Positions 3,430-13,268 of a DNA stretch of 13,268 nt are shown one piece after another (the stretch's first letter is position 1; every line of letters begins with the position of its first letter). The stretch is from contig PBKF01000026.1 of the NCBI GenBank assembly GCA_002722105.1, forward strand, positions 4,916 through 18,183, in the 5' to 3' direction. A model generated the notes under the pieces. That model saw only the letters and a list, made by a program, of their open reading frames with translations. It was not told the origin of the DNA and made no database searches. The position numbers and the translations under genes are program-made. The stretch is from Fidelibacterota bacterium (GTDB lineage Bacteria; Marinisomatota; Marinisomatia; Marinisomatales; UBA1611).

Positions 3430-5397
3430 ATGAGCAAAAAATCACTTTATCCTTTAGGGATGAGAATTCGTTATGGCATCGATAATTTTATGTCGAAAGG
3501 AAGTTCATCCATCTTTTTAGCATTATTAGCCCTATTTACAGGCGGGTTTTTATTTATGGTGTTCTTACGTGTTATTGCTAACGTATTTATTCCAGATGAG
3601 ACCTTAAGCAGCTGGATAGAAATCCCCTGGCGAGTATATGTGGCAGTCATGGAGGGTTCCGCTGCAGAAACAGATGGAGACAGTAACTGGTTAGCAAAGC
3701 TTTCATCCATTCTTGGCGTTTTAGTTGGCTTAATCCTTTTTTCAAGTATGGTAGCATTTATCACCAGCGTATTTGAAGCAAAATTAGCTGAGCTTCGACG
3801 AGGACGTAGTCTTGTCCTGGAAAAAGATCATACACTGATTTTAGGATTTGGTGACAGAATTATAGAAATTATCCGTGAATTGATAGAAGCCAATGAATCA
3901 GAACCAGATGCTGCTATAGTGATTCTGGCAGAGGATGATAAAGAAGATATGGATAATCTTATTCGCGATAACATCGACAATTTCGAAACAACACGAGTAA
4001 TTACTAGATCCGGAGTAGTAACCAACATAAATAATCTAAAAAAAGTCAATGCAAATCATGCTAAATCGATTATCGTTATGAATAATGCAGCAAGTTGGCG
4101 CTCAGAGTCTGAAAAAAAATTAGCTGATGCTTTGGTTCTTAAAGCGATTATGTCCATCATTGCCGTATGCGATGGAGAGGAACATCCACCAATTATTTGT
4201 GAAATCCATTCAGATCGAGACAGGGACTTAGCAGAAAATATTTCTTCAGGAACGGTGAAAGCTCTCAATGAAGTCAGTGTACTATCACGAATGATAGCCC
4301 AACTCGCACTAAGTCATAATGGTCTATCTGTTGTTTATAGTGACATGGTAGGCTTTGATGGAAATGAATTTTATTTTTATAAACCAGATGATGGATGGGG
4401 AGGAAATCTTTCTTTTGGAGATCTAACAAACCGGTTTAAAAGCAGTACGCCACTTGGAATACATAATAGTGATGGCCTAATCACTTTGAATCCACATCCT
4501 GATACGCCAGTAACAAACGAGGACGACCTTATAGTATTTGCGGAAGATGATTCAACAATCTTTTATTTTAATGAACCGGTCTTTCAAGCAAAAACATCCG
4601 AAATCCCTCAGATTGATACCAATCTTAGAAAACAACGAGTGGCATTATTAAACTGGACACCAAAGACTGAAATCATCATGGAAAAACTGTGTAGTTATTT
4701 ACCTGGAAATTCTGAATTATGTACCTATGTCTCAGAATTAAATAGTGAAATGGAAGAGTATAGGATAAAATTATTAGAAAGCTATCCCAATTTAAGTATT
4801 TCCATACATGAAATGGATTTCAATGATTTGAGCCGTTTGAATGATATTGATCCGCAAAGTTTTAATAGTCTACTAATCCTGTCTCCTGGCGGTTCTACTA
4901 TTGAAGAGATGGATGCTTATGTTATTTCACTTTTAATTAGAATACGCCAAATCCTGAGAAATTCAAATTCAAATAGATGGCCCAAACTGATTACAGAGGT
5001 CATGGACAGTGAGAATATAGATATAATCTTAAATAGCGGTGTGGAAGATTTTATGGTATCAAATCAATTTGTATCTCAAATCATGGCTCAAGTATCCGAA
5101 GAACCGATGGCTCTGGATGTTTATGACGACCTGTTTCAAGCTGATGGCAGTGAACTCTATATCAAGCCTGCTTCTTATTATTTTTCTTTTGAGGGGAAAG
5201 ATTCTATAACCGTACAATATGGTGAATGTGTCAAAGCAGCCCAGATCCGGAAAGAAGTAATTTTAGGAGTGCAATTGCACGCTGATGAAAAAGAAAAAGA
5301 TAAAATGTTTGGTATATCGTTGATTCCAGATAAAAGTAAGGAATTTACCCTAACGCCTGAAGATGGTTTAATTGCTCTAGCACCCGACGAATCCTAA
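3430..5397 (+). CDS. CASTOR/POLLUX-type putative ion channel with RCK-like domains
   Basis: This is a membrane protein of 655 residues resembling bacterial relatives of the CASTOR/POLLUX (SYM8) channel family and TrkA-type regulatory domains. After a basic N-terminus there is a transmembrane segment at about 28-53 and a second at about 92-114. The segment between them (about 60-90, SWIEIPWRVYVAVMEG and then an acidic DGD) sits where a pore loop would be, but it has no TVGYG-like potassium filter. Residue 133 onward starts a Rossmann/RCK-like domain (DHTLILGFGDRIIEIIREL) with acidic strand ends such as VILAEDD at about 164-170. A second RCK-like repeat begins near 402 (RVALLNWTPKTEIIMEKL), and a small C-terminal beta domain follows. 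RCK domains usually gate channels in response to ligands; the ion and ligand here are unknown. selD follows by 15 nt, suggesting co-transcription. The family call is from motif and layout recognition only. Confidence 0.75.
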   Translation: MSKKSLYPLGMRIRYGIDNFMSKGSSSIFLALLALFTGGFLFMVFLRVIANVFIPDETLSSWIEIPWRVYVAVMEGSAAETDGDSNWLAKLSSILGVLVGLILFSSMVAFITSVFEAKLAELRRGRSLVLEKDHTLILGFGDRIIEIIRELIEANESEPDAAIVILAEDDKEDMDNLIRDNIDNFETTRVITRSGVVTNINNLKKVNANHAKSIIVMNNAASWRSESEKKLADALVLKAIMSIIAVCDGEEHPPIICEIHSDRDRDLAENISSGTVKALNEVSVLSRMIAQLALSHNGLSVVYSDMVGFDGNEFYFYKPDDGWGGNLSFGDLTNRFKSSTPLGIHNSDGLITLNPHPDTPVTNEDDLIVFAEDDSTIFYFNEPVFQAKTSEIPQIDTNLRKQRVALLNWTPKTEIIMEKLCSYLPGNSELCTYVSELNSEMEEYRIKLLESYPNLSISIHEMDFNDLSRLNDIDPQSFNSLLILSPGGSTIEEMDAYVISLLIRIRQILRNSNSNRWPKLITEVMDSENIDIILNSGVEDFMVSNQFVSQIMAQVSEEPMALDVYDDLFQADGSELYIKPASYYFSFEGKDSITVQYGECVKAAQIRKEVILGVQLHADEKEKDKMFGISLIPDKSKEFTLTPEDGLIALAPDES

Positions 5398-5412: not shown

Positions 5413-6450
5413 ATGACAAATAGAGATAAAATAAGGCTCACCACTTTAAGCCACGGTTCCGGCTGAGCATGTAAGATCGGTCCGAGTGACTTAGCTCAGG
5501 TTCTGGGTGATTTAAAAATACCAGCTCACGATTCCGTCGTTGTTGGCTTTGATAGTGCAGATGATGCGGCAGCCGTGCGCATTGACAGTGGTAAAATAAT
5601 TATTCAAACTGTTGACTTTTTCACTCCAATCGTGGATGAGCCATACCAATTTGGTCAAATTGCTGCAGCTAATGCACTTTCCGATATATATGCTATGGGA
5701 GGAAAACCACTTTTTGCATTGAATATTGTTGGGTTTCCTATAAGTGAACTGCCAAAATCAATTTTGACTGAAATTTTGCAAGGAGGTGCAGATAAGGCAG
5801 AAGAAGCAGGAATACCTATTGTAGGGGGACACTCTGTCGATGATAAAGAACCAAAATTTGGCATGGTGGTTACAGGTGAAGTTGATGAAATTAATATGTG
5901 GAAAAATTCTAGTGCAAAAGTTGGTGATGTATTGATTCTGACTAAACCTCTCGGCACTGGTGTTATTGCCACTGCAATCAAAAAAGGTGTGGCAGATCCT
6001 GAAACAATCCAGAGAGCTATTGAATCCATGGCGATGCTTAATAAGAGTGCTGCAAGTGCGCTACAAGGATTAACTGTAAATGCCGTGACAGATGTAACCG
6101 GATATGGTTTATTGGGACATTTGAAAGAAATATGCCAAGGCAGTGGTGTATCAGCGATAATTAATTTTGATAAACTTGATTTTTTATCTGGTGTTCGACA
6201 ATTAGCTGAATCAGGAATTATGGCCGGTGGGACGAAACGTAACTTAGCATATGTTAAAGATTATGTTATGTTCGATGATGGATTATCGGAATTAGAAAAA
6301 CTTCTAGCAGCAGATGCACAGACATCTGGAGGACTTCTCATTTCTCTTCCTGAGAATGATGCCAATATTTTTTTTCAAAACTTTGGCGATTCTGCTAAAA
6401 TCATTGGCAAAATCACAGATATAAAAGAGTCCCTGATTCATCTGATATAA
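5413..6450 (+). CDS. selD: Selenophosphate synthetase (selenide, water dikinase), selenocysteine-containing
   Basis: SelD makes selenophosphate from selenide and ATP, the selenium donor for selenocysteine and for 2-selenouridine in tRNA. Starting at ATG 5413, the frame runs 345 residues with one in-frame TGA at codon 18 (5464-5466). The context is LTTLSHGSG-U-ACKIGP, aligning with the E. coli active site HGAGCGCKISP, where Cys17 is catalytic; the TGA therefore reads as Sec18. Lys21, Asp51, Asp68 and Asp91 correspond to the known catalytic and metal/ATP-binding residues (E. coli Lys20, Asp51, Asp68, Asp91). The GGHSVDD motif and a normal C-terminus follow. Length matches the family (E. coli 347). 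Without readthrough the first start is GTG 5575, which loses the active site. ATG 5413 is the only usable start between the upstream in-frame TAA (5395-5397) and the TGA. No strong Shine-Dalgarno is visible. The Sec assignment is strong, but selA, selB and selC are outside the window. Confidence 0.95.
5464..5466 (+). other. In-frame TGA recoded as selenocysteine (Sec18 of SelD)
   Basis: The TGA replaces the catalytic Cys codon of SelD. Flanking codons on both sides encode conserved SelD sequence in the same frame, with no other stop up to 6448. TGA acts as a normal stop in sufC, sufD and sufE nearby, so a genome-wide reassignment of TGA does not explain it. Confidence 0.93.
5482..5500 (+). 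promoter_or_regulatory. Bacterial SECIS-like hairpin after the selD TGA
   Basis: The stem GAGU (5484-5487) pairs with GCUC (5494-5497), closing a six-base loop GACUUA (5488-5493) with G in the first position. CC (5482-5483) pairs with GG (5499-5500) across a bulged A at 5498. The loop starts 21 nt after the TGA, within the 16-37 nt spacing usually described for bacterial SECIS elements. Weaker pairing may extend the stem outward towards 5476 and 5508. The hairpin lies in coding sequence, as expected for bacterial SECIS. Its recognition by SelB is inferred. Confidence 0.7.
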
Positions 6451-6532: not shown

Positions 6533-6931
6533 ATGTTAAAAATTACCCGCAAAGTCGAATATGCGCTCATAGCTTTACGGCACCTGAAGGGAAAACAAGA
6601 TGGCGAATTAACTACAGCAAAAGAAATTGCTGAGAACTATGCTATCCCGCAGGAATTGTTGGCAAAAGTGCTTCAACACCTTGCCCGTGAAGATGTTATA
6701 AAAGCGGTGAAAGGCCCATCAGGCGGTTATATGCTGAAAACAGATCCGAATTCAATTAATATGACAAAATTTTTTGAAATCATGGAAGGGCCTATGGGTA
6801 TCATGGACTGCTACTTTGATTCTAGATGTGATCAATTGAATGCCTGCAATATTCGAACACCAATAAATCGGATCAATGATTCCATCCGATCCATGTTTGA
6901 TAAAATGACATTAGCGGACATCACATACTAA
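6533..6931 (+). CDS. Rrf2-family, IscR-like Fe-S-sensing transcriptional regulator
   Basis: This is a winged-helix DNA-binding protein of 132 residues that probably represses the suf operon it heads. The N-terminus MLKITRKVEYALIALRHL is the typical Rrf2 first helix. The helix-turn-helix covers about 27-55 (TTAKEIAENYAIPQELLAKVLQHL), and the wing carries KGPSGGYML at 60-68. Cys93, Cys99 and Cys105 have C-x5-C-x5-C spacing, matching the [2Fe-2S] ligand cysteines Cys92, Cys98 and Cys104 of IscR. A cluster-dependent sensor is therefore likely. The E-I-M-E-G-P stretch at 82-87 is also family-like. The ATG at 6533 has GGAA just upstream. The gene overlaps the next one by one base (TAATG). An IscR-type palindrome in front of the gene suggests autoregulation. 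It could be called SufR or IscR by function, but no symbol is certain. Confidence 0.9.
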   Translation: MLKITRKVEYALIALRHLKGKQDGELTTAKEIAENYAIPQELLAKVLQHLAREDVIKAVKGPSGGYMLKTDPNSINMTKFFEIMEGPMGIMDCYFDSRCDQLNACNIRTPINRINDSIRSMFDKMTLADITY

Positions 6932-7293
6932 TGAATTTGAAGGATAAAATAATTGATGTATTAAAACAATGTTATGATCCGGAAATCCCCGTGGATCTGT
7001 GGAATCTTGGCTTAATCTATGATATTAAGTTTGAGGAAGCTGAAGGAGAAAAAACTGAAGTTAAAATCATCATGTCCTTAACCACCCCTGGATGCAGCAT
7101 GGGACAACATATGGCAGATGACATTAAAACAAAAGTTTCAGATCTGGAAGAAGTGACTGATTGCCATGTAACCGTAACATTTGATCCGCCCTGGAATCCG
7201 GAAATGATGACAGACGTAGCTAGAAAAAAACTTGGTTTTGATCCAACACCGGTTCCAAAACAAGAACCAAAAATCGATATGGAGTGGGAATAA
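6931..7293 (+). CDS. MIP18/DUF59-family Fe-S assembly protein (short form)
   Basis: This is a single-domain MIP18 (DUF59) protein of 120 residues. The family includes the cytosolic Fe-S targeting factor MIP18, PaaD and the C-terminal half of SufT, and its members act in maturation or delivery of Fe-S clusters. Visible motifs are YDPEIPVDLWNLGLIYDI at about 15-32, TTPGCSMG at 51-58 with the conserved Cys55, and DPPWNPEMM at about 85-93. The C-terminal tail (about 104-120) is proline-rich and acidic and is not conserved. Its start overlaps the stop of the regulator (TAATG), and its own stop overlaps the start of the A-type carrier. It is distinct from the longer SufT encoded later in the same operon. 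The exact target proteins are unknown. Confidence 0.88.
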   Translation: MNLKDKIIDVLKQCYDPEIPVDLWNLGLIYDIKFEEAEGEKTEVKIIMSLTTPGCSMGQHMADDIKTKVSDLEEVTDCHVTVTFDPPWNPEMMTDVARKKLGFDPTPVPKQEPKIDMEWE

Positions 7294-7667
7294 TGAGCGA
7301 AAAACAATCTATAGAAACACAACAGGAAGCATTTCAAAATGCAAGCATTACTGCTTCAAAAGCAGCAGTAAAAAGATTAACGGCTGTAATGGAAGCTGAT
7401 GGAAAAGATGATCATTTTTTAAGAATGTCCGTTGAAGGTGGCGGATGTTCTGGCATGACTTACAAAATGGATTTTGAAAATAAAATAGGTGAATTTGATA
7501 AAGAGTTCGAATCTAACGGTCTTAGAATTGTGTGCGATCTTCAAAGCTGGTTGTATTTAAAAGATGTAGAAATTGATTACTCCGATGATTTACTAAATGG
7601 TGGTTTTAAGATCAAAAATCCAAATGCTGAAAGGACTTGTGGCTGTGGAACAAGTTTTTCCGCCTAA
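7293..7667 (+). CDS. sufA: A-type Fe-S carrier (HesB/IscA/SufA family)
   Basis: This 124-residue protein binds and passes on Fe-S clusters or iron from the assembly scaffold to apoproteins. The three invariant cysteines are present: Cys52 in VEGGGCSGMTYKM and Cys116/Cys118 in RTCGCGTSF, spaced as in IscA, SufA and ErpA. The N-terminal 20 residues are a variable, Gln-rich extension. I prefer ATG 7293, which overlaps the upstream stop (TAATG) and has GGAG at 7281-7284 about 8 nt upstream. The longer GTG start at 7284 would consume that ribosome binding site. The operon position suggests SufA, but ErpA or IscA would look similar. The end of the gene contains a hairpin followed by a T-run (listed separately). 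Confidence 0.9.
   Translation: MSEKQSIETQQEAFQNASITASKAAVKRLTAVMEADGKDDHFLRMSVEGGGCSGMTYKMDFENKIGEFDKEFESNGLRIVCDLQSWLYLKDVEIDYSDDLLNGGFKIKNPNAERTCGCGTSFSA
7631..7659 (+). terminator. Weak terminator-like hairpin at the end of the A-type carrier gene
   Basis: ACTTGT (7635-7640) and ACAAGT (7650-7655) form a 6-bp stem with a 9-base loop, followed by TTTT. The stem could extend outward by two A-U and two G-U pairs. It lies inside codons for the CGCG cysteine motif, so it may be chance. If active it would attenuate sufBCD relative to the first three genes. Confidence 0.25.
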
Positions 7668-7720
7668 TTTTTTTCAGGTTAAAGCAGTTCAAATAAAATA
7701 TAAGAACTTTGTAAATCCTA

Positions 7721-7733
7721 GTCACTGAGTGAC
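7721..7733. promoter_or_regulatory. Perfect palindrome just upstream of sufB
   Basis: GTCACT and AGTGAC are perfect 6-bp inverted arms around a central G, ending 8 nt before the sufB ATG at 7742. As RNA it would form a 5-bp stem (GUCAC/GUGAC) with a UGA triloop at the ribosome entry site. A possible -10 TATAAG lies upstream at 7699-7704, without a good -35. Its function as operator or translational element is not known, and it does not match the IscR-like site at 6454. Confidence 0.3.
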
Positions 7734-7741
7734 AGAATAAA

Positions 7742-9187
7742 ATGAGTAACGAACAACAAATCATTAATGAACAAATAAAGAAAGAGTACAAGTACGGTTT
7801 TGTTACAGATATTGAATCTGAAACGCTTCCACCGGGCTTAAATGAGAATATAATTCGTACTATTTCTGCAAAAAAAGAAGAGCCGGACTGGCTATTAGAT
7901 TGGCGGTTAAAAGCATATTATCACTGGCTTAAAATGACAGAGCCAGCCTGGGCAAAAGTGTCTTACCAGAATATTGATTATCAAGCGATAAGTTATTTTT
8001 CCGCACCAAGAAAGAAAGAGCTAGCCAGCCTGGATGAAGTAGACCCTGAATTGTTAGCAACATATAATAAGTTAGGCATACCTCTGGAAGAGCAAAAAAT
8101 GCTTTCGGGAGTGGCTGTAGATGCTGTATTTGACAGCGTATCCGTTGCAACCACGTTTAAAGAAGAATTAAAAAAGGCCGGTGTCATTTTTTGTAGCTTC
8201 TCAGAAGCAGTAAAAGATTATCCCGAATTGGTGAAAAAATATCTTGGCACCGTTGTCCCTTACACGGATAATTATTATGCCACTTTGAATTCAGCAGTAT
8301 TTACCGATGGCTCATTTGTCTATATCCCCAAAGGAGTGCGTTGCCCCATGGAACTCTCCACTTATTTCAGGATCAATGAAGCAAAAACAGGTCAATTTGA
8401 ACGAACTCTGATTGTTGCTGATGAAGGTAGCTATGTCAGTTATCTAGAAGGATGTACAGCTCCTATGCGGGATGAGAATCAACTACACGCTGCCGTAGTT
8501 GAATTAGTTGCTCATCAAGATGCAACCATCAAATATTCAACCGTTCAAAATTGGTATCCAGGACATCCGGAAACAGGAAAAGGAGGCATTTATAATTTTG
8601 TAACAAAACGTGGAACATGCTTGGGAGATCATTCCAGAATTTCATGGACCCAAGTTGAAACAGGATCTGCCGTTACATGGAAATATCCATCCTGTATATT
8701 AAAAGGTGATCATTCTGTCGGTGAATTTTATTCTGTAGCTGTCACCAATAATCACCAGCAAGCCGACACCGGTACCAAAATGATTCATCTTGGTAAAAAT
8801 ACTAAAAGCACCATTATTTCCAAAGGTATCTCTGCAGGCCATGGTCAACAAACCTATCGCGGTGAAGTAAAGATTATGAAAGGTGCTGAAAATTCCCGCA
8901 ACTATTCCCAATGTGATTCCATCCTGATTGGCGATCAATGCGGTGCGCATACATTCCCCTACATTGATGTGAGAAATCCGTCAGCCCAAATGGAGCATGA
9001 AGCAACTACATCTAATATTGGCGAAGATCAGCTTTTTTACTGCAATCAGCGAGGAATTTCAACTGAAGATGCCGTATCTATGATTGTGAATGGATTTTGT
9101 AAAGAGGTCTTTAATGAATTACCCATGGAATTCGCTGTAGAAGCAACAAAATTGATGGAAGTGAGTCTGGAAGGAAGTGTTGGGTAG
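7742..9187 (+). CDS. sufB: SufB, Fe-S cluster scaffold protein of the SufBCD complex
   Basis: SufB is the cytoplasmic scaffold on which the cluster is built in the SufBC2D complex, receiving sulfur from SufS/SufE. At 481 residues it has the usual length (E. coli 495). Hallmarks include [20 protein letters not shown] at 193-212, EGCTAPM at 236-242, QNWYPG at 269-274, and the C-terminal block from [20 protein letters not shown] (389-408) to [14 protein letters not shown] (427-440). Cys391 and Glu420 align with E. coli Cys405 and Glu434, the key residues for cluster formation, with the same 29-residue spacing. The protein is therefore likely functional. It follows a 74-nt gap, the largest inside the operon, and sufC starts 4 nt after its stop. 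No clear Shine-Dalgarno is visible. Confidence 0.97.
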
Positions 9188-9191
9188 TTAA

Positions 9192-9932
9192 ATGCTGGAA
9201 ATAAAGAATCTCCACATTAGGGTCGATGATAAAGAAATAATAAAAGGGATCAATCTGTTTATTAACCCCGGTGAAATGCACGCCATTATGGGGCGAAATG
9301 GATCCGGTAAAAGTACACTTTCAAATGTCATTACAGGCCGTGATGGTTACAATATTACAAAAGGCGATATTCTTTATTTTGGTGAATCTATTTTAGATTG
9401 GTCACCAGAAGACAGATCCCTGGCTGGTATTTTCATGTCATTTCAATATCCGGTTGTGATTCCAGGCGTAAATAATACTTATTTTCTAAAAGCGGCCCTG
9501 AATGCGAAGCGTAAATATCAGGGTGAAAAAGAATTAGATGCTGCAGGATTTTTAAAGCTGGTTAAAGAAAAACTGAATCAAGTGGATATAGATACAAATT
9601 ACCTCCAGCGTGCTGTGAATGAAGGTTTTTCGGGCGGAGAAAAAAAGCGGAATGAAATATTACAAATGTTGACGCTCGAACCTACTCTGGCCATTCTGGA
9701 TGAGACTGATTCCGGATTGGACATTGACGCTCTAAAAATTGTTTCCAATGGTCTGAATCAATATCGAAATGAAGATCGGTCATTTCTTGTCATTACTCAT
9801 TATCAGCGATTATTAAAATACATTGAGCCTGATCACGTTCATGTTTTAATTGATGGACAAATTGTTCGTTCCGGTGGTAAAGATTTAGCTTTGGAGTTGG
9901 AAGATAAAGGATATAGTTGGTTAGCTTCATGA
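9192..9932 (+). CDS. sufC: SufC, ATPase of the SufBCD complex
   Basis: SufC is an ABC-type ATPase that drives conformational change of SufBCD during cluster assembly; it is soluble and not a transporter. At 246 residues it matches the family. Walker A is GRNGSGKST at 34-42, the Q-loop is SFQYPVVIPGV at about 83-93, the ABC signature is FSGGEKKRNEI at 146-156, Walker B and the D-loop are LAILDETDSGLDIDAL at 167-182, and the switch histidine is His203 in ITHYQRLLKYI. The ETDSGLD sequence after Walker B is characteristic of SufC. The start lies 4 nt after the sufB stop, and the stop overlaps the sufD start (ATGA). Confidence 0.97.
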   Translation: MLEIKNLHIRVDDKEIIKGINLFINPGEMHAIMGRNGSGKSTLSNVITGRDGYNITKGDILYFGESILDWSPEDRSLAGIFMSFQYPVVIPGVNNTYFLKAALNAKRKYQGEKELDAAGFLKLVKEKLNQVDIDTNYLQRAVNEGFSGGEKKRNEILQMLTLEPTLAILDETDSGLDIDALKIVSNGLNQYRNEDRSFLVITHYQRLLKYIEPDHVHVLIDGQIVRSGGKDLALELEDKGYSWLAS

Positions 9933-11197
9933 ATCTCACACACTATCAAACTGAATTTGAAAAACTAATGAATCGGGAATATTTCTCGAAAGAAGTTCAT
10001 CCCATTAGAAAGGATGCTTTTTCAAAATTCCTTGACACAGGATTTCCAACACAAAAATGGGAAGATTGGCGTTTCACTAATTTATCAGCTATTACAAAAA
10101 AGAATTTTAAAATTTCAGATGTTCAAGATGCACCAAAAGAAAAGTTGGATTTATCAGAATTTGAGATGGCCGATGCTACTGATATAATTTTTTATAATGG
10201 CCATTTTCAACGAAATATTTCAACTATACCTAAAGGTGTTCAACTCTTGACAGGTCTGGAATATTTGGAAATGAAAAATTGGCAGTTTAATTATCCTGCA
10301 AATTCTCCATTTGATCTTTTGAATACTGCGTTTATGGATAGCGGTTTGTCTCTAGTTATTTCACCAAATACCGTCATTGAAAAACCCATCAGATTCCTTT
10401 TTATTTCTTCAGGTAAAGAAAATTTGATGGTCTCCCCCATTGTCCATTTTGATTTAGGTAAATCCGCATCTGCTATTTTTATTGAACATCATTTGGGAGA
10501 TGCCCAGGCCTTTTTTCAAAATAGTTCCACACACATTGCTCTAAGCCAAAATGCTCAATTGGATCACATCCGTATTCAATCAAATTCACAAGAATTCATC
10601 AACATGGCGAATCTCAATATTGAACAAGGGGTTGACAGCCAATATTCATTTTTTCAATTTGCTGAGGGTGGAAAATTGAGTAGACTCAATATTCGAGCGG
10701 ATTTAAAAGGTGAAGGTGCAAATTGCGATTTATCAGGGTTAGCTCTTTCTACCAATTCACAACATTTAGATCACCATATCATTACAGATCACAAAGTAGC
10801 TCATTGCACCAGTTCTCAAAATTTTAAATCGGTTCTCCAAGATTCCTCTAAAGGTGTTTTTGTTGGAAAAACTATCGTAAGGGAAAATGCTCAAAAGACA
10901 GATTCTACCCAAAATAATAAAAATCTATTGTTATCTAATAATACTCTAATGAATTCTAATCCACAATTAGAGATTTATGCCGATGATGTAAAATGTGTAC
11001 ACGGTTCTACTATAGGTGCTTTAGATGATAATGCCCTATTTTATTTACGATCCCGAGGATTAGATCTCATGGAATCAAAGGCATTATTGGTCAATGGGTT
11101 TGCCAATGAATTAATGGATAAAATAAAGCAAGAATCAGTGCGGGCATTTATCACAAATCAGTTTGAAAATTGGCTTAGAAAGAATACAACCGGATGA
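9929..11197 (+). CDS. sufD: SufD, partner subunit of the SufBCD complex
   Basis: SufD is a paralogue of SufB and pairs with it in SufBC2D, where it helps with iron acquisition and cluster formation. It has 422 residues from the ATG at 9929, which overlaps the sufC stop as ATGA. An alternative TTG at 9917 would add four residues and is less likely. The N-terminal region has TQKWEDWRFTNLSAI at about 41-55, typical of SufD (KWEDWRYT-like). The beta-helix core ends with YADDVKCVHGSTIGALDD at 350-367 and LFYLRSRGLD at 370-379. His358 in the CVHGST motif corresponds to the conserved His360 region of E. coli SufD. Sequence between about 60 and 150 is poorly conserved, as usual for SufD. It is followed by sufE with an ATGA overlap. 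Confidence 0.95.
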   Translation: MNLTHYQTEFEKLMNREYFSKEVHPIRKDAFSKFLDTGFPTQKWEDWRFTNLSAITKKNFKISDVQDAPKEKLDLSEFEMADATDIIFYNGHFQRNISTIPKGVQLLTGLEYLEMKNWQFNYPANSPFDLLNTAFMDSGLSLVISPNTVIEKPIRFLFISSGKENLMVSPIVHFDLGKSASAIFIEHHLGDAQAFFQNSSTHIALSQNAQLDHIRIQSNSQEFINMANLNIEQGVDSQYSFFQFAEGGKLSRLNIRADLKGEGANCDLSGLALSTNSQHLDHHIITDHKVAHCTSSQNFKSVLQDSSKGVFVGKTIVRENAQKTDSTQNNKNLLLSNNTLMNSNPQLEIYADDVKCVHGSTIGALDDNALFYLRSRGLDLMESKALLVNGFANELMDKIKQESVRAFITNQFENWLRKNTTG

Positions 11198-11601
11198 CTA
11201 TCCAGGAAAATTTAAAGGAATTGAACGACCTGTTTTCAATATTTGATAATACGAAAGACAAATTTGTTCAACTTATGGATATGGCAATTGAATCAGAAGG
11301 TTTGAATGAGTTGGAAAGGGTTGAAGAAAATAAGATCTACGGCTGTACATCCCAAGCTTGGGTATTAGGTTCCAGAAATGAGAATAACACCTATGTCTTT
11401 AGAACCGACTCTGACGCAATGATTGTAAAGGGGTTACTTTCCTTATTAGAGAGAATATTTAATAATCAAATACCAAAAGATATTTTATCCGTAAACTGTA
11501 ATGACATTTTGAGCTCCGTTGGTCTGGATGGTGCTGTCACCAGTCAACGGACGAATGGATTTTTCAGTGCTATCCAGAAAATTCAGGAAATTGTAAAATG
11601 A
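11194..11601 (+). CDS. sufE: SufE, sulfur acceptor for SufS
   Basis: SufE takes persulfide sulfur from the cysteine desulfurase SufS, activates it, and passes it to SufB. At 135 residues it is normal in length (E. coli 138). The catalytic cysteine is Cys51 in IYGCTSQAWV, the same position as Cys51 of E. coli SufE. SDAMIVKGLLSLL at about 72-84 is the second family block, and the C-terminal TSQRTNGFFSAI (about 115-126) also fits. It overlaps sufD at the start and sufT at the end, each as ATGA, so translation is probably coupled. A CsdE-type paralogue is possible, but the suf operon context favours SufE. Confidence 0.95.
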   Translation: MTIQENLKELNDLFSIFDNTKDKFVQLMDMAIESEGLNELERVEENKIYGCTSQAWVLGSRNENNTYVFRTDSDAMIVKGLLSLLERIFNNQIPKDILSVNCNDILSSVGLDGAVTSQRTNGFFSAIQKIQEIVK

Positions 11602-12140
11602 ACCAAGTGCCAAACGAAGCGATTAGATTACTAAGAGATGTAGATGCTTACATGGTTCCATCAGGTGATGAAGTTAAGTTATTGGCTGGAAATTTAGTCC
11701 GAATCACCCAAGCTTTAGGTGGGAATTATACAATTCTTATCAATGGGAATATGGTTCAAATCACAGAAGAAAATGCAGATGCATTGGGATTTGAAATCTC
11801 GAAAATAGATGAAACATCCAAAACAAGAGGCGACTTGGAAAGCCAAATCTGGGACCAACTTCGAACATGTTACGACCCTGAAATTCCTGTAAATATTGTG
11901 GAACTGGGACTTATCTACGGCATGGACATTTCTGATCTGAATGAAGATAAAATGGTCAAAATCAAAATGACTCTTACTGCACCGGGATGCGGTATGGGCC
12001 CTGTAATCGCTGGAGAAGTGGATCGTAAAGTGAAAGGACTGGACGGCGTCGAAGACGTGTCAGTTGAATTGGTCTGGGAGCCTCAGTGGAATAGAGATAT
12101 GATGAGTGAAGCAGCACAGCTTGAATTAGGCATGCTGTAA
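11598..12140 (+). CDS. sufT: SufT, Fe-S assembly protein with C-terminal MIP18/DUF59 domain
   Basis: SufT is an auxiliary Fe-S maturation factor found in many suf operons. It has 180 residues in two parts. The N-terminal SufT-specific region (about 5-65) includes LLRDVDAYMVPSGDEVKLLAG and ITQALGGNYTILINGNMVQI. The MIP18 domain (about 80-175) carries YDPEIPVNIVELGLIYGM, TAPGCGMGP with the conserved Cys131, and EPQWNRDMM at 161-169. The N-terminal extension separates it from the short MIP18 protein at the front of this operon, which shares the same domain. It overlaps sufE as ATGA and is followed by a 67-nt gap before sufS. Confidence 0.92.
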   Translation: MNQVPNEAIRLLRDVDAYMVPSGDEVKLLAGNLVRITQALGGNYTILINGNMVQITEENADALGFEISKIDETSKTRGDLESQIWDQLRTCYDPEIPVNIVELGLIYGMDISDLNEDKMVKIKMTLTAPGCGMGPVIAGEVDRKVKGLDGVEDVSVELVWEPQWNRDMMSEAAQLELGML

Positions 12141-12207
12141 AATCATTGTAAAGTATAAAAAACCTAAGGGTGCGAAAAGTAGATTATAAGGAATAAACTG
12201 GATAATT

Positions 12208-13268
12208 ATGTTTACACCAAAAGATATTAAAAAAGATTTCCCTATTTTTTCTAACTCTGAATTAATCTATTTTGATAATGCAGCCACATCGCAAAAACCT
12301 CAAACTGTTCTGGATGCAGTTGATTCACTCTACAAAGAAGCGAACGCTAATGTGCACCGCGCTCTTTATGATATTGGCAGTGAAGCAACAAATCGATATG
12401 AAACAGCCAGAAAAAAAGTAGCCAACTTTATAAATTCACAATCAGATAGAGAAATTGTTTTCACAAGCGGCACAACAGAGTCAATCAATCTATTGGCTTG
12501 GTCAATTGGAAATAACCTAAGGCCTGGTGATCAAATTCTGATCTCAGAAATGGAACATCATTCCAATATTGTACCTTGGCAATTGGCTGCTATGCGAACT
12601 GGTGCGACTCTAAACTTTATACCGATAAATAATTCAGGCGAATTGGATATTTCTGAACCGGACAAATATTTCACACACAATACAAAAATTGTCTCCTTGA
12701 CCCATATGTCTAATATACTAGGCACTATTAATCCAATAAAAAAAATTGCAAAATTGGTTCAAAATGTCGGTGCAATTTTTATTGTTGACGGCGCACAGGG
12801 TGCTTCTCATATACCTGTCAATGTTCATGAATTGGGATGTGACTATTATGCATTCTCCGGTCATAAAATGTTGGGGCCAACGGGGGTTGGTGTTTTATGG
12901 GGAAAAACTGATTTATTAAATGAAATGGAACCATTCATGGGCGGCGGTGAGATGATCAATACCGTTACGATGGAAAAATCTACCTGGAATGATATTCCAT
13001 ATAAGTTTGAAGCTGGCACACCCAATTTTGCCCAGGCAGTTGGTCTCGGAGCAGCGATTGATTATTTAGAAGGAATCGGCATGGCTGCTGTTGAGTCCCA
13101 TGAGAAGCAATTAACTCAATACGCCTTAACTAAATTGAATGAAATTGAATGTCTCAGAATTCATGGTAATGCAAAAAACCGTGGCGGTGTAATTAGTTTT
13201 AACATTAAAAATATTCATCCACATGATTTAGCCCAGTTTTTAAATGAAGATAATATAGCGATTCGTGT
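12208..13268 (+). CDS. sufS: SufS-type cysteine desulfurase (cut by window edge)
   Basis: SufS is a PLP enzyme that takes sulfur from cysteine as a persulfide and hands it to SufE; group II members can also act on selenocysteine. The frame is open for 353 codons to the right edge with no stop. Motifs are YFDNAATSQKP at 21-31, NVHRALY at 48-54, FTSGTTESINL at 85-95, EMEHHSNIVPW at 114-124, VDGAQGASH in mid-protein, and FSGHKMLGPTGVGVLWG with the PLP Lys at 220. The end reads IAIR, just before the expected GHHC catalytic cysteine loop, which is therefore outside the window. The ATG at 12208 gives the family N-terminus, with GGA about 5 nt upstream. It is separated from sufT by 67 nt. Confidence 0.95.
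   Translation, partial: MFTPKDIKKDFPIFSNSELIYFDNAATSQKPQTVLDAVDSLYKEANANVHRALYDIGSEATNRYETARKKVANFINSQSDREIVFTSGTTESINLLAWSIGNNLRPGDQILISEMEHHSNIVPWQLAAMRTGATLNFIPINNSGELDISEPDKYFTHNTKIVSLTHMSNILGTINPIKKIAKLVQNVGAIFIVDGAQGASHIPVNVHELGCDYYAFSGHKMLGPTGVGVLWGKTDLLNEMEPFMGGGEMINTVTMEKSTWNDIPYKFEAGTPNFAQAVGLGAAIDYLEGIGMAAVESHEKQLTQYALTKLNEIECLRIHGNAKNRGGVISFNIKNIHPHDLAQFLNEDNIAIR

Follow-up and report, generated by a model that had tools for sequence, protein, structure and literature searches.

A probable selenocysteine-containing selenophosphate synthetase encoded at the head of the SUF genes in a SAR406 relative

The window, i.e. the whole stretch of 13,268 nucleotides analysed here, comes from a relative of SAR406/Neomarinimicrobiota; SAR406 is an abundant lineage of the ocean. 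On its forward strand, which carries all of the features described below, lies selD, the gene for selenide, water dikinase (5413..6450; 345 codons, identified by profile and alignment), whose codon 18, at the active-site position, is UGA (5464..5466). A gene for a 655-residue protein of the Castor/Pollux channel type with an RCK domain (3430..5397) ends 15 bp before selD. The protein, which matches the Castor_Poll_mid and Slo-like RCK domains, is a bacterial relative of the plant Castor/Pollux channels. The first gene past selD encodes an Rrf2-family regulator (PF02082; 6533..6931), and it is followed by the SUF iron-sulfur assembly genes (6931..13266), in the order FeS_assembly_P, an A-type gene (Fe-S_biosyn), sufB, sufC, sufD, sufE, a further FeS_assembly_P gene, and sufS, the last of which is cut by the end of the window. 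The names of these neighbouring genes rest on Pfam matches.

The selD frame runs from the ATG at 5413 to the TAA at 6448–6450, and the TGA at 5464–5466 is its sole internal stop, the coordinates and residues given for it in the first-pass annotation being correct in the translation of 5413..6450. When the TGA is translated as U, the frame yields 345 residues with U18, as that annotation had also proposed, and the product is SelD by the TIGR00476 profile, which scores the read-through protein at 393.5 bits versus 337.2 bits for the truncated form (curated cut-off, 125 bits). The truncated form is the ordinary gene call, an open reading frame of 291 residues (5575..6450) that begins at the next listed start, GTG 5575, and loses 54 codons. 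Alongside U18, the residues K21, D51, D68, and D91, which had been named as in place, are all found in the read-through protein; we take U18 and K21 to be the catalytic Cys/Sec and Lys of SelD, and the three Asp residues to be those for ATP and metal. An alignment with SelD homologues, suggested at the outset as a check, places U18 opposite Cys17 of 3u0o, which we take to be the SelD of Escherichia coli. That protein is the same enzyme (277 bits; Cys17, Lys20, Asp51, Asp68, and Asp91 correspond), but has Cys where the window SelD has Sec. The SelD of Aquifex aeolicus, presumably the protein of PDB 2yye and naturally Sec-containing at the loop, belongs to the same sequence family (2yye and relatives; 239 bits), although it comes from another phylum and is less similar; the solved sequence of 2yye carries Cys at the loop. 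With its 345 residues and a UGA, the window SelD is not of the Ndh-SelD fusion form, which has a fused oxidoreductase and an active-site Cys.

The first-pass annotation had expected usual gene calls to misannotate this gene, and the database entries bear this out. Two proteins that are 98–99% identical over the part covered (P0002 and P0003) are 291-residue forms truncated at the same GTG as the window frame. Among the best 120 of 7998 scored homologues, 95 begin after the active-site loop, and the other 25 span the loop with Trp at residue 18. The W18 entries look like TGA translated as Trp by another table, which is their best explanation, because one of them (P0029) is 98.8% identical to a locus (L023) whose DNA reads TGA. 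Since the best 120 of the 7998 matches are all either truncated or Trp-bearing, surveys built on such gene calls would overlook SelD as a selenoprotein.

A SelD query (P0001) matched 200 of the 245 genomes of the phylum, some of the matches being weak and paralogue-like. The codon homologous to codon 18 was read in 124 loci, the window included, and is TGA in 106, TGT in 11, TGC in 7, and TGG in none. The 100 short stretches behind this count were hand-chosen among the matches listed. Left out of it were L009, a duplicate of L001; L030 (G127) and L035 (G144; a chance match only), single-domain loci listed with no stop, whose genes are cut by contig ends; and L148, L153, L161, L166, L168, and L169, in which the expression did not match the motif and each of which is listed with one TGA. 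None of the 18 Cys codons is from a place listed with an internal stop; 17 of them lie in open frames of 736–762 residues, which is presumably the size of Ndh-SelD fusions, and the remaining one (G216) lies in a frame of 352 residues whose beginning coincides with a contig end. In most of the UGA loci, the SHG(S/A)G-x-ACK loop is retained on both sides of the TGA, and the codon equivalent to Lys21 is kept in 106 of 106, while the second Cys (codon 20) is replaced in four (by Ser in three and by Gly in one). The gene shows the pattern by which selenoprotein genes are recognised, an in-frame UGA where homologues have either UGA or Cys (106 TGA and 18 Cys of 124). The nearest named locus, L001, from Candidatus Neomarinimicrobiota (SAR406), encodes a SelD that is 62% identical to that of the window and has mostly the same gene order, and the identity reaches 78% in G126 and 77% in G128.

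In two genomes, G112 and G113, both a UGA-containing SelD and a Cys form of fusion size were read, and in G033 the Cys form alone. In genomes of the G112/G113 type, the Cys SelD could prime Sec synthesis where the UGA-encoded enzyme cannot. For a block of small genomes of the same phylum (G037–G060, 0.4–1.0 Mb), the SelD and SelA matches were weak or none among the rows listed, and the Sec-SelD trait seems to be absent from this block.

The conservation of the codon bears on two other readings of the TGA. If it were a sense codon in this lineage, for Trp or another residue, the 25 of 25 listed loop-spanning database proteins that carry W18 would be accounted for. However, a reassigned sense codon is unlikely because TGA serves as the terminator of sufC, sufD, and sufE within the window, and 40 TGG codons were counted across 12 window genes; TGG is found at 0 of the 124 homologous codons, and the near-identity of P0029 to a TGA-bearing locus also tells against this reading, which we regard as hardly credible. 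A sequencing or assembly error, or a decaying pseudogene starting at GTG 5575, would agree with the single internal stop and with the 337 bits that the truncated frame still scores against the selD model. A sequencing error is, however, excluded by the same GTG truncation in the 98–99% identical database proteins, which come from other sources, and by the TGA in 106 of the 124 loci; the loop mostly kept around the TGA and the covariation of a downstream hairpin (hairpin 2, below) speak against error and decay alike, and leave them a negligible probability.

Two potential RNA hairpins follow the UGA in the window. Hairpin 1 (5479..5491) pairs GGUC with GACU around a 5-nt loop, and hairpin 2 (5494..5508), the proposed bacterial SECIS, has 6 bp, two of which are G-U, with the 3-nt loop GUU at 5500–5502, 33 nt after the UGA. 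Pairs were counted in 102 of the 106 TGA loci, after the removal of two duplicates and two N-bearing rows; hairpin 2 corresponds to the zero-based columns 29–35/39–45 from the U of the UGA, the part formed in the window being 5494–5508. Over the 102 distinct sequences, 86.1% of the hairpin 2 cells are paired, versus 75.0% in shuffled alignments, and double-sided changes occur in 85 cells, versus 30.9 in the shuffles, none of 500 of which reached as high a value. The covariation score is 0.329 versus 0.159 at most when the stem is slid. In the corrected mutual information for column pairs at least 4 apart, the pairs 32–42 and 35–39 rank at the top (z = 13.2 and 11.9, respectively), and four of the top five pairs fall in hairpin 2. 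Its key pairs link third with first codon positions, CAG/CTG occurring with CAA/TTG, and GCC/GG- with GCT/AG-.

A double change occurs in 5 pairs of hairpin 2, a count not above that of the shuffles (80 of 500 were as high), and single-sequence folding of the window RNA over 60 nt from 5461 was no better than shuffles (z = −0.27). RNAalifold returned no consensus structure for the 102 sequences. The stem is broken in several UGA loci (e.g., L021, L023, L025, L028, and L031), and any given pair fails to form in between 3 and 42 of the 102 sequences. In the bSECIS model, as set out in PMC13188914, a stem of 4–16 bp carries a loop of 3–9 nt with G in the first two positions and lies 16–37 nt past the UGA for most; hairpin 2, with 6 bp, a GUU loop with G first, and 33 nt, agrees with that description. 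We regard hairpin 2 as a statistically supported SECIS candidate. Hairpin 1, considered as a covarying SECIS core, was dropped, its covariation not exceeding that of the shuffles. It is 94.9% paired, and its synonymous choices are very strongly conserved: GGT accounts for 91 of 93 Gly codons and GAC for 91 of 99 Asp codons, whereas further downstream these genes use GGT for 345 of 1120 Gly and GAC for 323 of 1237 Asp.

Termination could also dominate at the UGA, with the working enzyme starting at GTG 5575 and devoid of the Sec loop. The 291-residue frame is open, and some SelD-like proteins have neither Cys nor Sec. The loop and Lys21 are nevertheless conserved upstream of 5575, the Lys codon in every one of the 106 UGA loci, and the covarying hairpin 2 also lies upstream of this start, so that we consider this reading very improbable.

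The Sec machinery was searched for across the phylum (245 genomes). Scores above the curated cut-off were obtained for SelA in 175, for SelB in 166, and for tRNA-Sec in at least 153, with up to 16 tRNA candidates scored per genome. G126 has a tRNA-Sec of 58.1 bits together with SelA and SelB, its selA adjoining selB, and G128 combines a tRNA-Sec of 67.2 bits with a 511-bit SelA and matches SelB at 2.1e-94. All 15 loci around tRNA-Sec matches, from 14 genomes, gave an ARAGORN call of tRNA-SeC with the anticodon UCA. Judging from such relatives, the window's own genome would be expected to carry selA, selB, and selC. What we observe directly is an open frame with UGA at the catalytic position, a codon that is conserved across the phylum, and the covariation of the 3′ hairpin; this conservation and covariation, along with selA, selB, and selC in the nearest of the genomes compared, support Sec at residue 18. 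We put the probability that this gene encodes a selenocysteine-containing selenophosphate synthetase at about 95%.

For 19 relatives, no selC was found, and 18 of these, all but G132, strongly match one or more of SelD, SelA, and SelB. In a tRNA-Sec search of 37 genomes, including three known positives, with 116 of the candidates scored in most genomes, these three scored near 100 bits and the next best 45.7 bits. Among the matches listed, the tRNA-Sec core pattern was matched exactly in the known positives alone and, with one mismatch allowed, gave no row that was tRNA-like by eye. A TPR/SPOR gene lies upstream of selC in 14 of 15 loci, the fifteenth being a contig that begins at selC; the distance from the end of the gene to the tRNA core is less than about 60 bp in 13 loci and about 2.6 kb in G141. 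In 17 of the 19 relatives without selC, a strong TPR/SPOR match is lacking as well (three show weak matches). The contig of G139 stops inside the TPR/SPOR gene, and that of G143 stops 408 bp past the gene, within another open frame. The gene is likewise missing from G109, G105, G074, G032, and G029, which have no strong selC match. Because the neighbouring gene is also missing, or the contig ends there, assembly gaps are the likely reason for the unfound selC, and the locus is likely to be absent from the assemblies and not from the genomes; the case of G143 leans on the gene order of G141. The alternative, a SAR406 subclade truly lacking tRNA-Sec or having a divergent one, was rejected.

In L325–L339 (e.g., L338 and L339, both from G130), selC lies downstream of a conserved row consisting of a miaB-like gene (by eye) and genes for a small protein, a TPR protein, and the TPR/SPOR protein, and the far side is variable. 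Two contigs of G130 end at tRNA-Sec, a pattern that would be compatible with an insertion hot spot.

UGA codons were also read in other genes of the relatives. SelW-like genes (PF10262) were matched in 17 of 20 relatives, and 16 of the 19 places contain one TGA, one of them being a partial match below the cut-off; the remaining three are partial matches that start past the motif. For the peroxiredoxin type (PF00578), many places contain one TGA, and a TPG-stop motif was read in L255–L257 and L259. In L259 (G126), the TPG-stop peroxiredoxin-type gene adjoins a CSM-stop SelW-like gene, and the two have the look of a selenoprotein pair. No internal stop was found in molybdopterin oxidoreductases at any of 29 places (matches in 14 of the 20 genomes). 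Given the UGA in SelW-like and peroxiredoxin genes, these organisms probably have selenoproteins besides SelD.

The genes around selD were compared in 43 hand-chosen loci from 43 genomes, L001 included. The order selD, rrf2, FeS_assembly_P, A-type gene, sufB, sufC, and sufD is found in 30 of these, and the Castor/Pollux-type gene is the same neighbour in 13. In L324, selD stands ahead of a rearranged suf cluster, and in L309 and L310 the contig ends near selD, in L310 past rrf2. The fetched stretch of 10 of the 43 loci contains no selD–suf row; one of these, L322, still has sufS-like and FeS_assembly_P-like matches. At the level of titles and abstracts listed from the open literature, searches on the selD–SUF link and on Sec in SAR406/Marinimicrobia gave no description of this gene arrangement. 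That selD heads the SUF operon points to SufS, together with SufE, as a possible source of selenium for SelD.

The first-pass annotation was right that Sec-containing SelD is not a new class. According to PMC2398784, marine bacteria of the GOS metagenome have UGA at the SelD active site, with 357 Sec forms in Table 2, Sec-SelD ranks with the most widespread selenoproteins of the sea, and Ndh-SelD fusions are reported as always having Cys. The GOS data, as given there, resemble SAR406 in the UGA at the SelD active site and in the SelW-like and peroxiredoxin selenoproteins of the same communities, whereas the present analysis deals with a single phylum together with its Sec machinery, a SECIS candidate that covaries, and a conserved operon. 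To the known class it adds the conservation across the phylum, the statistically supported SECIS candidate, the two kinds of database error, and the selD–SUF gene order.

Three SAR406 single-cell genomes appear as orphan-SelD organisms in Table 1 of PMC5029168. These belong to the same phylum, but here SelD itself reads as a selenoprotein, and the phylum has SelA, SelB, and tRNA-Sec; compared through the published listing, the SAR406 genomes printed as 'orphan SelD' are probably not orphan. Two of the three selD neighbours that the same source gives for orphan-SelD organisms are an ABC-type ATPase (PF00005) and a cysteine desulfurase-like gene (PF00266). As sufC matches PF00005 and sufS matches PF00266, these neighbours may, by family description, be sufC and sufS.

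By established biology, SelB with Sec-tRNA(UCA) would bind the hairpin and insert Sec at UGA 18. The selenol of the N-terminal loop is predicted to help convert selenide and ATP to selenophosphate, which SelA would use to make Sec-tRNA, and SelD would also serve the SelW-like and peroxiredoxin selenoproteins. Since a Sec-containing SelD makes the selenophosphate that SelA uses for Sec-tRNA, the enzyme would depend on its own product. A joint reading, which we offer tentatively and hold to be more doubtful than probable, is that the selenium supply of SAR406 is wired into Fe-S assembly: the gene for Sec-SelD would open a SUF operon under Rrf2 control, SufS/SufE would deliver both selenium and sulfur, the operon would act as a self-amplifying switch for Sec use because SelD needs its own product, and the 'orphan SelD' trait would be an artefact of incomplete genomes and missed UGA decoding. 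The kept order of selD and the SUF genes turns the connection between selenium and sulfur trafficking into a testable one, and the selenium-activating enzyme of SAR406 appears itself to need selenium.
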